Part shown: positions 10,537-56,659 of the stretch, one piece after another
Layout of the letters: every line of letters starts with the position of its first letter
Position numbering within the stretch: the first letter of the stretch is position 1
Assembly: GCA_036504095.1 (NCBI GenBank)
Contig: DASXVS010000071.1
Coordinates: 186,001 to 250,000 of the forward strand
Source of the DNA: Armatimonadota bacterium
GTDB taxonomy: Bacteria > Armatimonadota > DTGP01 > JAKQQT01
Length of the DNA stretch: 64,000 bases
Direction of reading: 5' to 3'
Program-made: the position numbers and the translations under genes
The notes under the pieces: generated by a model
Told to the model about the DNA's origin: nothing
The model's input: only the letters and a program-made list of their open reading frames with translations
Databases searched by the model: none

Positions 10537-10612
10537 GGAAATGAGGAAGCGGGGTAACGAGGTAATGACCGGCCCCGTGAGTTTCCTCATTTCCTCATTT
10601 CGTCGTTTCCCA
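10537..10612. repeat. Inverted arms of octameric purine/pyrimidine repeats
   Basis: GGAAATGAGGAA (10537-10548) is the exact reverse complement of TTCCTCATTTCC (10583-10594), separated by 34 nt. The right arm is a tandem of 8-mers of TTTCCTCA type (10582 to about 10612). It fills the gap between the YggS start and the stop of the YqgF-like gene. It belongs to the same architectural class as the heptad elements elsewhere in the window. Confidence 0.65.
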
Positions 10613-10613
10613 G

Positions 10614-11045
10614 TCACCCCGTTCCCTGGGTTCCTGTCCGTTTTCCGGCCCAATACCGTTCGCCCAGAATAACCGCCGCGTAGTCATCCAGCGCCCTTGG
10701 CGGGGTGAACAATCCCTCGGGCAGGAATCTTGCCAGCCCTCGACGCGGGTGGTCTCGATAATAGCGCGCCCGAGAAAGCATCGTGGTCTCGTGTTCTTCC
10801 ACGAGCACCAGTAGGTGTTGGAGCGCCTTCTCCAGTTCCAGGCGGGCGTCACGCGAGCCCGTTCGATCCCCGATCACCACGGCGACCGGGCAATGGCGCG
10901 CCACGGTGTTCAGAACGGACGCTACGAGATCGCAGCGCGGTACGATGCATTGGTCCAGCACGGCGCCGGACTCGCAGACGGTCGCGACACCGCATTTGCT
11001 GAGGCCCGGATCCACCGCGACAACACACCCATCATTCATTTTCAC
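10614..11045 (-). CDS. RuvX/YqgF-like RNase H-fold protein
   Basis: 143 aa. It opens with VVAVDPGLSKCGVATV, the DPG nucleotide/metal site of the RNase H-like YqgF/RuvX fold, and ends with DDYAAVILGERY, matching the late acidic motif. A central GDRTGS also fits. The family includes Holliday-junction-resolvase-like and pre-rRNA nucleases, but this member is divergent, so the exact activity is uncertain. The start overlaps the 3' end of pgeF by 14 bp, implying co-transcription. Confidence 0.7.
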   Translation of the reverse strand: MKMNDGCVVAVDPGLSKCGVATVCESGAVLDQCIVPRCDLVASVLNTVARHCPVAVVIGDRTGSRDARLELEKALQHLLVLVEEHETTMLSRARYYRDHPRRGLARFLPEGLFTPPRALDDYAAVILGERYWAGKRTGTQGTG

Positions 11046-11844
11046 GGTCCGCCAGTCCTACTATGGCCGCGAAGCGCCCCGTGACGCCTTCGGCCCTAAG
11101 GGAGAAATACGCATCAACGAAACAGCTTGTACACGGCGCCGAGATGCTTACGTATTCGGGGTCCAGTCCCGCCGACGACAGGTCGGCGCGCGCGACCCGT
11201 GCGAGATTCAGGTAGCGCCGGCCCTCCTTATCCTCGCGGATCGCCCGTGGAATCGATGCAAATCCAGCCGCAACATCCGCGCCAACTTCGTAACAGCAGA
11301 CTCCGATGTGCGGTCCGATCGCTGCCTGTAGTGTCGCCGGGTCGGTGCCGTATTCGCGTCGCATGGCCTCAACAGTGTTTCTTAGTACGCCTGCTGCGAG
11401 GCCGCGCCACCCCCCGTGCGCCACTCCAACCGCCCGCCGAACAGGATCCAGGAATAGAACCGGCACGCAATCCGCCACGGTTACGGCGATGAAGATATCG
11501 GTGCGGTCGGTGATGAGGGCATCGGCTTCCGGCGGCGGGTCTCCCCGGCCTGGGAGGTCCCGCACGGTGACAACCGTGGCCCCGTGAACCTGCTTTGGGA
11601 AAACGCGGGGCCGGCTCATGTCGCCCAATGCCGCGCCCAACTTCGCGCGATTGGCAATCACCGCACCCGGAACGTCGCCGACGTTGTCGCCGAGGTTGAG
11701 ACTGTTGTACGGAGCGCGCGAGACACCGCCATCGCGCGTCGTGATGCCGTGGGGAACGCCCTCCCGCAGCCAGGATGCCCACTGCAGGAGCGAGACACCC
11801 GCCTTCTCCTGCACAGCGCAACCAAATGACAGTTCCAGGGCCAC
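11032..11844 (-). CDS. pgeF: Purine nucleoside phosphorylase / polyphenol oxidase family protein (YfiH/PgeF)
   Basis: 270 aa. Motifs of the COG1496 family: GVPHGITTRDGGVS, YNSLNLGDNVGD, VFPKQVHGATVV, EADALITDRTDI, VADCVPVLFLDP, VAHGGWRGLAAGVL and IGPHIGVCCYEVG. The conserved Cys and His zinc ligands are present (VADC, AHGGW, GVCCYE). Members are described as multicopper-oxidase-like and as broad purine nucleoside phosphorylases; cell-wall editing is reported in E. coli. It lies directly after the DUF3084 gene. Confidence 0.9.
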   Translation of the reverse strand: MALELSFGCAVQEKAGVSLLQWASWLREGVPHGITTRDGGVSRAPYNSLNLGDNVGDVPGAVIANRAKLGAALGDMSRPRVFPKQVHGATVVTVRDLPGRGDPPPEADALITDRTDIFIAVTVADCVPVLFLDPVRRAVGVAHGGWRGLAAGVLRNTVEAMRREYGTDPATLQAAIGPHIGVCCYEVGADVAAGFASIPRAIREDKEGRRYLNLARVARADLSSAGLDPEYVSISAPCTSCFVDAYFSLRAEGVTGRFAAIVGLADRENE

Positions 11845-11845
11845 G

Positions 11846-55063: not shown

Positions 55064-56533
55064 ATGCGTACATATGTGTCTTTGGCGATGTTGGTATCAT
55101 TCCTGGCTCTGTGTTGCGGGTCATGCCCACCCGCGTCGGCGACGGTTCCCGGCGATGTTGATGGCGATACGCAGGTTACGCTGAACGATGTCCGGTTGGC
55201 CGTCAGCATATCGGGTGGGCTGTTCAAAGCGATGGCGTCCAACGTCGCGGCCGGCGACGTTGCATCGGCGACCGGTAATACGCCGGACGGACGCATTACC
55301 ATCCTGGATGCGGCGCGCATCCTCCGCGCCATCAATGGACTTGATAATCTCGGAGGCTCGGCTTCCGGGTCGAAGGCCCTTCCACTCAATGACCCCTCCG
55401 TCGCCATCCCGTCAAACCTGGTTCGCAATTACACGCTTCCCGGCGGATTCACGCTCAGTGGTACCGCCAAAACCACCGCCGGATTGTCGATCACGAATCA
55501 GGCCGGCCTCCCCATGACAACCGGCTCTCTCAGTTTCGTGAACGGCGGCAGCCCTTCAAGCTCCGGCGCCGCTTCGGTGGCGGGCACCACGGGCAACTAT
55601 TCCACGGTGCTCGCGGCAGGAACGTACAACGTCAAGGTCATGTCCCAGGTCATCAACTTCGACATTCAGACGGGAGCCTTTTCGAATTACACGCTGCAGC
55701 AGACTGCGACGCCCTCAACGGTTTCCATCAGCGCGGACAAGACGCAGAACTTCGTCAGGCCCGATCTGCCTGTAACCGGGATGGTTGCGGGCGCCGTCGC
55801 GGGCGCGGATGTCGTGCCCCAATCCGTCGACTTTACGCTCAGCGCCGGGGTTGGATCGGGCTCTGGGGTGGTTGACGTTGGCGCGTATACGGTTACGGCG
55901 CCGCCCGGGGCGGGCTATCTCTCCGTCCATAATGATTACGCAGCCGACTCGAATGTGTCGGTCGCCGCATATCTTTTTGCTTCACCCCTTACGGTCGTAT
56001 CCGGCAGCACACTCACACGCGACATCACTATCCCGGCGCTCGGGACGATTCACGGAACGGTCACGCCGCCCTCCGGCACGAGTATAGACAGTGTCTTCGC
56101 CGGCAACTACGTTGTCGGACAATCGGCCGCGACCGATCAGTATACCTCGACGTACCTGATCCAGACAGCCACCCCGAACGCATATCGCCTAGCGCTTCCG
56201 CCCGGCACATACCCTCTGACCGTGGTACTGGCCCCCATCGCGACATCGACGTCAAGTATGTCAGTGTACTTCATCACCCAGGCAGTCTTCACCCTGGTAG
56301 ACACGGTGAAGGACTTCACGGTGCCGGCGTTGGCGTCGACTGTGGTGTTCAGCGGTGTCGTGAAGGGACCTGGCGGGGCGGTCCTGAGTGGCGCGAATGT
56401 GACGCTTATGACGCATACCACCAGCACTCCGACGAGCGGCTTCTTCGTTGTGGCGCAAGGCAAGACCAACGCCTCGGGAGCGTTTAACATCTCCGTGCTG
56501 CCCGGCACATACGACGTGATGGTGTCACCGTAG
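55064..56533 (+). CDS. Secreted protein with N-terminal dockerin module and carboxypeptidase-regulatory-like repeats
   Basis: 489 aa from the ATG at 55064 (AAAGGGAAA upstream). Signal peptide SLAMLVSFLALCCGSCPP. Then GDVDGDTQVTLNDVRLAVSI and DGRITILDAARILRAINGL, a dockerin type I pair with intact Asp loops. The rest consists of β-sandwich repeats (about 110-489: LSGTAKTTAGLSI, VTGMVAGAVAGADVV, FSGVVKGPGGAVLSG) resembling carboxypeptidase-regulatory-like domains. Function unknown, likely surface-linked. Confidence 0.8.
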   Translation: MRTYVSLAMLVSFLALCCGSCPPASATVPGDVDGDTQVTLNDVRLAVSISGGLFKAMASNVAAGDVASATGNTPDGRITILDAARILRAINGLDNLGGSASGSKALPLNDPSVAIPSNLVRNYTLPGGFTLSGTAKTTAGLSITNQAGLPMTTGSLSFVNGGSPSSSGAASVAGTTGNYSTVLAAGTYNVKVMSQVINFDIQTGAFSNYTLQQTATPSTVSISADKTQNFVRPDLPVTGMVAGAVAGADVVPQSVDFTLSAGVGSGSGVVDVGAYTVTAPPGAGYLSVHNDYAADSNVSVAAYLFASPLTVVSGSTLTRDITIPALGTIHGTVTPPSGTSIDSVFAGNYVVGQSAATDQYTSTYLIQTATPNAYRLALPPGTYPLTVVLAPIATSTSSMSVYFITQAVFTLVDTVKDFTVPALASTVVFSGVVKGPGGAVLSGANVTLMTHTTSTPTSGFFVVAQGKTNASGAFNISVLPGTYDVMVSP

Positions 56534-56545
56534 CGAAGCCGGCCA

Positions 56546-56619
56546 GCGGGGCCGCCGGCGGCCCCGCGATTCCATCCCCCAGATGAAGGCAGGGGCGCGG
56601 ACACCAGTGCCCGCGCCCC
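56546..56619. terminator. Back-to-back terminator hairpins between convergent genes
   Basis: GCGGGGCCGCC/GGCGGCCCCGC (56546-56567) is a 22-bp perfect palindrome just after the plus-strand stop. GGGGCGCGG (56592-56600) and CCGCGCCCC (56611-56619) form a second stem serving eno on the minus strand. Confidence 0.8.
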
Positions 56620-56624
56620 CGAAT

Positions 56625-56659
56625 CCCTCAGCCGTTGGGCCTCAGCCCTCGGGCCTACC
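56625..56659. repeat. Short heptad run at the eno stop
   Basis: CCCTCAG, CCGTTGG, GCCTCAG, CCCTCGG, GCCTACC (56625-56659); the final word includes the eno stop codon. Confidence 0.6.

Follow-up and report, generated by a model that had tools for sequence, protein, structure and literature searches.

Heptad arrays with genome-specific words in the gaps between bacterial genes

Why should the gaps between the genes of a bacterium be filled, again and again, with short degenerate tandem repeats whose unit is seven letters long? The question is raised by one stretch of an Armatimonadota genome (4.68 Mb in 80 contigs, called G000 below), the 64,000 nucleotides (nt) of C71:186001-250000, to which we refer as the window. 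An initial annotation had described heptad arrays in many of its gaps, often paired with a reverse-complement array. As the analysis below shows, these repeats have a unit of seven or, at some loci, eight nucleotides and are confined to the gaps, where they avoid divergent gene pairs and lie near the ends of upstream genes. Their words form genome-specific families that recur between the loci of one genome, and at the orthologous gaps of close relatives one word is replaced by another.

The seven-letter period and its place between genes

Arrays were detected as self-match segments at each lag and compared with dinucleotide shuffles (5 for the window, 20 for the gaps and 3 for the coding sequence of the genome sample). 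In the window, lag 7 gave 14, 9 and 6 segments at three score cut-offs against 2.0, 0.2 and 0 in shuffled sequence, lag 14 gave 11, 10 and 7, and lag 8 gave 5, 3 and 3; the weaker excess at lags 3, 6, 9 and 12, seen at the lowest cut-off only (6, 5, 10 and 5), is expected of coding sequence. With 314 kb more of the same genome added (378 kb in total), a simple purpose-made codon-model predictor split the sample into 220 gaps (46,770 nt) and 304 genes (321,069 nt). The gaps held 25 segments at lag 7 (0.2 in shuffles), 8 at lag 8 (0.05), 21 at lag 14 (0.2) and 6 at lag 21 (0.1), with 0 to 2 at each of the remaining lags from 3 to 20; the coding sequence held none at lag 7 (2.0 in shuffles), while the multiples of 3 were raised. 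The period-7 excess in gaps claimed by the initial annotation is thus confirmed by the autocorrelation against shuffled controls that it had proposed as a check. Arrays are also spread outside the window, their absence from the rest of the genome being what it had named as refuting, and all nine loci that it listed carry arrays (that at 56625 by lag 14 only). At a looser cut-off an array at lag 7, 8 or 14 was present in 36 gaps of the sample, 14 of them in the window, where one (CGCGCCG at 25621) resembles plain GC-rich sequence; a fifteenth window locus is the octamer hairpin at 17555-17629, which falls within a long open reading frame. The median array is about 5 units long.

The placement of the arrays was followed in six genomes. 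They cover 0.07% of predicted coding sequence and 3.6% of all other sequence (767 of 1,037,082 nt against 9,583 of 265,738 nt), in line with the earlier remark that they are almost absent from genes. Among 691 gaps of 30-800 nt, arrays occur in 110 of the 491 between co-directional genes, 12 of the 87 between convergent genes and 5 of the 113 between divergent genes; divergent gaps are avoided relative to all others (5/113 vs 122/578, Fisher 4e-6). Measured from the upstream stop codon, the start of the array lies at most 15 nt away in 57 of the 110 co-directional gaps; its end is equally close to the downstream start in 26. Gene 3' ends and slippage, both suggested at the outset, stand as candidate roles. 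A scan of five sources for RNA genes found one tmRNA and two tRNA genes. Directly after the tmRNA (L011 6499-6935; 143.8 bits in Rfam, missed by ARAGORN) comes a heptad hairpin that is itself followed by TTTT. Another heptad hairpin lies 7 nt downstream of the tRNA-Ser gene; none follows the tRNA-Val gene.

At two further places (L143 13906 and L144 902) the upstream gene appears to have its stop codon within a heptad array, and arrays may in this way set protein ends. The idea of a stop-codon cassette (7 mod 3 = 1) was dropped as weak; sense-stop units numbered 37 of 85 against 29.4 (standard deviation 3.4) in the first half of the gaps and 19 of 56 against 17.7 in the second. Single arrays had no significant strand bias (23:19 in the first half, 7:13 in the second; all arrays, 51:30 and 18:37).

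How far do such arrays extend among other bacteria? Thirty-six loci had been picked by homology to one ATPase, regardless of repeats, and a lag-7 array was present in 11 of them (one run of N excluded), which by their titles come from Desulfobacterota/Syntrophales, Acidobacteriaceae, Chloroflexi and Myxococcaceae. Over 2.54 Mb from 41 genomes, ten of which are a selected set, chosen for follow-up from those eleven by the lag-7 hit at their first locus, lags 5, 7, 8, 10, 11 and 13 gave 3, 200, 44, 13, 8 and 7 segments. Per 100 kb, three genomes of the selected set, G031, G032 and G033, had 27, 37 and 44 segments at lag 7. Their distribution within the Armatimonadota is patchy, with lags 7 and 8 giving 21 and 16 segments in 1.13 Mb from 30 further genomes of the phylum, and lags 5, 10, 11 and 13 giving 2, 7, 4 and 1. 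A 50 kb stretch of Escherichia coli K-12 gave none at lag 7.

Words, word families and their replacement

The initial annotation held that the words differ by locus, which as a strict rule proved wrong. A triplet pattern of GGGCTGA, with at most 2 mismatches, matches G000 as a whole at 145+58 = 203 positions (overlapping within arrays), with 16 contigs among the 100 matches listed, and both the backward pattern and a permuted word gave 0. The GAGTTCC/GGGTTTC pattern likewise has 35+34 = 69 match positions against 0 for its backward control. When each array was compared with the other array gaps of its genome, a match was found for 11 of 27 arrays in G000, against 6 of 81 in a column-permuted control, and the same comparison gave 3/14 vs 0/42 in G031, 18/35 vs 5/105 in G032, 10/21 vs 2/63 in G033, 17/24 vs 3/72 in G034 and 21/31 vs 2/93 in G035. 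Between unrelated genomes of different phyla the matches (1/27, 2/27 and 0/35) were no more than in the control; a sharing test based on consensus words also found mostly chance agreement, and its one higher value (G000-G035, 15 vs 9.8) was not repeated in the array comparison. Each genome has many families, at least 12 unlike ones in one genome sample, and some are without GGG (GCATTCA, TTGAGAA), which is not the single G-tract word of Xanthomonas. A purine/pyrimidine pattern of the words was considered and rejected, one purine run being present in 39 of 95 heptads against 33.9 from permuted letters.

A unit size shared by distant bacteria, with a vocabulary private to each genome, points to a copying or slippage process. 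Could slippage alone be enough? Under such a neutral explanation, near-repeats of 7-8 nt that arise by chance would expand locally and persist wherever they are harmless, which suits the absence of arrays from coding sequence and their rarity in divergent (promoter) gaps. Rehm et al. (PMC4692102), in the passages compared, cite a proposal that traces the excess of heptamers to the length of DNA that the polymerase holds. Local expansion would, however, yield unrelated words, and the sharing of words within a genome is several-fold above a composition-matched control. As a complete account we consider neutral slippage unlikely, though it deserves to be taken seriously, and more of the evidence on it comes from orthologous gaps.

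Since the closest relative compared with G000, G001, is only of the same family, the orthologous-gap check that the initial annotation had called for was run in other clades, namely in three Desulfobacterota (G031, G032 and G033, flank identity 91.5-93.3%) and in a pair of Acidobacteriaceae (G034/G035, 92.0%). An array was classed as found again at 0.6 or more of its full score, as partly found at 0.4-0.6 and as not found below that, the shuffled level being 0.23-0.25. The 65 array-by-gap comparisons of the Desulfobacterota, in which an array may count repeatedly, gave 12 arrays found again, 10 found in part and 43 not found, and in the Acidobacteriaceae 7 of 13 were found again. In 40 of the 53 Desulfobacterota comparisons that fell below 0.6 the orthologous gap held another array, which expansion in place does not predict. 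At the same cut-off, array-free gaps were kept in 5/8, 1/3 and 23/41 cases. A comparison of unit-consensus words between gap pairs with arrays in both found the same word in 1/6, 0/2, 1/6 and 1/4, and is too crude, as inspection by eye shows the same word in at least two of the three G034/G035 pairs that it scored as "different". Changes of length between relatives are suggestive of whole-unit steps of 7. Six G034/G035 arrays between hand-picked anchors differ by 7, 56, 21, 7, 0 and -2 nt, that is, by whole units in four of the five that changed, as slippage would have it, and one orthologous array of this pair has 3 units in one genome and about 11 in the other.

The replacement of words also bears on the proposal made by the authors of the Geobacter metallireducens study for paired 7-/8-mer arrays, which they listed, in the passages compared, as "predicted global regulator binding sites", alongside 49 GGGACCG elements (PMC2700814). 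Sites of a sequence-specific regulator could well be tandem words and opposite-strand pairs at many loci, with words peculiar to the genome. One would not expect so many unlike families in a single genome sample, nor words that are replaced at orthologous gaps despite flanks about 92% identical, and divergent gaps, the usual location of regulator sites, are the ones avoided. We regard this explanation as improbable.

Inverted arms, their polarity and possible origin

The initial annotation had placed inverted arms around loops of 10-35 nt, and this description stood up: at 8 of the 15 window loci an array overlaps a hairpin above the 95% level of shuffles, with loops of 11-34 nt. A hairpin above that level overlaps the array in 37 of 106 array regions of the first sample set. 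The wider set has 68 heptad hairpins; 60 of these are in six genomes, where the loops measure 4-134 nt. When the RNA of ten gaps of the window was folded, six of seven two-arm gaps had z scores of -3.4 to -5.7 and the three single arrays were near 0. Taking the best hairpin of each gap, with array overlap not required, gave 15:6 with arrays and 16:8 without, and was rejected as a test. In register the arms are 0.82 identical, where permuted units reach 0.77, and the real value is the higher in 45 of 56; the register had been picked as the best, and this result is not used.

The two arms are not equivalent. The left arm has more G than C in 55 of the 68 hairpins and less in 11, with 2 ties, against 35:24 with 5 ties for control hairpins from array-free gaps (Fisher 0.005). 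Of 20 word families formed by single linkage, 19 have the G-richer word on the 5' arm, and 23 of the 24 pairs of hairpins with a word in common agree in which of its strands is on the left. Among the GAGTTCC/GGGTTTC places listed there are five close opposite-strand pairs, all of them, by eye, the word followed by its reverse complement. Neither inverted arms nor a preferred strand on the 5' arm is predicted by neutral slippage. Such a polarity, in all but one of the families, is what one would expect of scars left by a telomerase-like extension of DNA ends that were then joined head to head, since this predicts the G-rich strand on the left in every pair. A single template would, however, yield one word per genome; there is no RVT_1 match in the array-rich G002, G020, G021 and G031, Ku is found only in G024, G034 and G035 of 24 genomes, and MutS is present in 22 of the 24, hence there is no general loss of repair. 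We find this explanation hardly credible.

Repetitive extragenic palindromic (REP) sequences and bacterial interspersed mosaic elements (BIME) are intergenic hairpins at gene 3' ends; they have a fixed consensus, are associated with the REP-associated Y1 transposase (RAYT) and have no heptad structure. The present hairpins are like them in position and unlike them in being built of heptads. They could be mobile in the same way, being dispersed in gaps of a genome, G000, that has 7 Y1_Tnp matches. This too we judge very unlikely, given that the hairpins have no conserved end tetranucleotide (the commonest is in 3 of 60) and no loop in common, and that Y1_Tnp matches are missing from the array-rich G021, G032 and G035 and found in the array-poor G008, G014 and G022. 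More generally, none of Y1_Tnp (present in 19 of the 24 genomes), RVT_1 (12), Ku (3), MutS_I (22), DnaE2 (model over the cut-off in 3) and SbcD (8) tracks array density, with the density figures resting on 20-380 kb per genome and the absence of a gene being uncertain in draft genomes.

The explanation that we favor, tentatively and with rather less than even confidence, is that the arrays are stem-loops at gene ends or between cistrons that are changed by slippage and by ectopic copying between arrays. Arrays would lengthen and shorten through slippage of whole units; arms would arise when the nascent strand folds back and copies itself, the G-richer strand doing so more often; and words would travel to other gaps when the copying strand switches its template from one array to another. 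The stem-loop itself may be retained because it serves as a folding 3' end of transcripts or as a spacer between cistrons, by analogy with the REP/BIME hairpins of enterobacteria. A stronger version, in which copying in fixed steps of 7 (or 8) nt writes, rewrites and moves words between gaps in several phyla, so that a gap keeps its array while the word is exchanged from the genome's own lexicon and the G-richer strand is always on the 5' arm, we consider doubtful.

It is worth setting out the observations that weigh against these stem-loops and their copying. One two-arm window gap (43586..43663) folds no better than its shuffles (z -0.64). Hairpins with a word in common do not resemble each other in their loops more than other hairpins do (0.32 vs 0.29), an argument against the hairpin being copied as a whole. 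Only 4 of 60 hairpins have a T-run behind them and 1 of 60 has an A-run in front, and the scarcity of T-runs indicates that most are not plain intrinsic terminators. Polarity in G000 is not clearly special (11:1 for arrays vs 19:7 for array-free hairpins), nor is it in the Acidobacteriaceae (8:5 vs 11:8); the excess over controls stems from the Desulfobacterota (29:4 vs 5:9), and the polarity rule is therefore firm only there. Orientation is mixed in three chained word families (2/4, 9/13 and 5/9). Array-free gaps of the same genome pairs also diverge fast, as the 5/8 and 1/3 kept make plain. As to unit steps, an automatic test of in-array indels of at least 5 nt found 2 of 6 to be multiples of 7, and among re-found arrays whose length had changed between the nearest anchors the figure was 1 of 8.

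The arrays of the window and heptamers known elsewhere

The window arrays, collected in Table 1, sit in part within what looks like a lipopolysaccharide-export operon (LptF/LptG, ABC ATPase, LptA-like). A search of the window with Rfam 15 gave 0 matches at gathering score.

Table 1. Tandem arrays and hairpins of the window, with positions counted from its first letter and z scores from RNA folding
Feature	Position	Strand	Remarks
Octamer hairpin (AGGAAATG / TTTCCTCA)	10536..10610	.	Takes up most of gap 10517-10613; z -3.42
Heptad array GAGTTCC/GGGTTTC (13207-13288) with degenerate inverted arm (~13303-13327)	13200..13330	.	Flanked by DUF3084 gene and LptF/LptG gene; z -4.59
Heptad hairpin, GGGCTGA family	14434..14507	.	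Separates LptF/LptG gene from ABC ATPase gene, one operon; z -4.53
Octamer hairpin (GAGGGGGT / CCCCCTCT)	17555..17629	.	Within open reading frame 16411-18414
Heptad arrays TCAGGAG, then CAGCATY	19139..19191	.	
Weak heptad array GCATTTT	19301..19340	.	
Short heptad array TTCATCR	20008..20028	.	
Octamer array TCGCCCCG	26490..26515	.	
Single heptad array ACCCGAAACCCGGA	28051..28081	.	Reverse complement of 13200 word family; inverted arm looked for, none found; z -0.93
Heptad hairpin GCATYCR	42679..42757	.	Fills gap 42691-42758 between co-directional genes; z -5.70
Heptad hairpin GAGTATT/GAGAATT	43586..43663	.	CN_hydrolase gene on one side, proteasomal-ATPase-like gene on the other; z -0.64
Single heptad array CACTTCC	45568..45609	.	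z +1.23
Heptad hairpin CGGGAGC	46617..46717	.	z -5.07
Heptad hairpin TTGAGAA/CTCAATT	51693..51797	.	Convergent gap; z -5.33
Array CCTCAGCC, detected at lag 14	56626..56656	.	Convergent gap, enolase gene 3' end; z -0.91

One reading frame runs straight through its octamer hairpin: that of 667 aa at 16411-18414, which has no Pfam match and may be two genes fused by an open repeat. Other hairpins came to light along the way. Octamer words of the CTTCGTGTCTTTGTGGT type form inverted arms at C71:70774-71022 and 86353-87448 (L010, L011) and at L024:14467-14679; such words probably occur in many unrelated genomes. A long hairpin characterized by CCTGAGCGAAGCGAAGGATCT (CATTCTGAG... in L160) is found in gaps of G000 (C71:69506 region, L010) and of a Desulfobacterota genome, the other coordinates being the L019 17637 region and L160 113-304, and looks like another widely shared element.

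A unit of seven is not new in itself. Heptanucleotide short tandemly repeated repetitive sequences were reportedly described in Calothrix by Mazel, and Mrazek is said to have noted an excess of heptamers among prokaryotic simple sequence repeats (SSRs); the unit is what these have in common with the present arrays, and the inverted, degenerate, multi-word form is not known to be described in them. Two traits of the heptameric SSR class hold here: head-to-tail units of 7 nt above chance (Rehm/Mrazek), and an excess in non-coding sequence together with scarcity between divergent genes.

The closest parallels come from three published systems, each compared through passages of its paper. Rehm et al. 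(2015, PMC4692102) report heptameric repeats GGGAATC / GGGGA(C/T)T in Xanthomonas and Nostoc, argue that they form G-quadruplexes, and put the number of convergent pairs at 70 in one Xanthomonas genome and 75 in another. Like ours, these are degenerate 7-nt units, few per array, intergenic, common in co-directional gaps and rare in divergent ones, and the G-rich word is on the left in inverted pairs, with the restriction to Desulfobacterota given above for our own arrays. A further likeness is that most keep their orthologous place between relatives while their length changes. Unlike ours, they have one word per genome, where we find many and many of these without G-runs, and in one clade we find words replaced at conserved gaps. 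The arrays of G. metallireducens (PMC2700814) are also tandem (TCTCCGTS, 8 nt; MTYCTGA, 7 nt), with opposite-strand pairs and several word classes per genome; they differ in being fixed classes of binding sites, some inside genes, and the passages compared hold no analysis of period or turnover. The TAACTGA direct repeats of Beggiatoaceae (MacGregor 2015, PMC4679880) are again intergenic tandem heptamers, found in distant lineages too, and differ in having one word, a place upstream of start codons and almost no inverted form.

The initial annotation could put no name to the inverted, locus-specific form. As far as inversion goes this did not stand, with the GGGAATC pairs of Xanthomonas and the paired arrays of G. 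metallireducens as precedents. What is already known, then, is the heptameric repeat, its intergenic bias, the convergent pair and the paired 7/8-mer classes of Geobacter; what the present arrays add is a genome-specific lexicon of many words and the replacement of words at conserved gaps. No paper on multi-word inverted heptads or on Armatimonadota heptads was found among those with open licences, which is not a claim that none is in print.

That unrelated bacteria have the same sharp quantum of 7 nt, while lags 5, 10, 11 and 13 are not in excess, calls for a physical explanation that could be tested, and a step of the polymerase, a folded intermediate and a constraint on RNA stems are candidates. 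With vocabularies of their own and with words exchanged at conserved gaps, some genomes have a large share of gaps that evolve unseen by ordinary alignment or terminator prediction, and the words of the arrays would be usable as fast strain markers.

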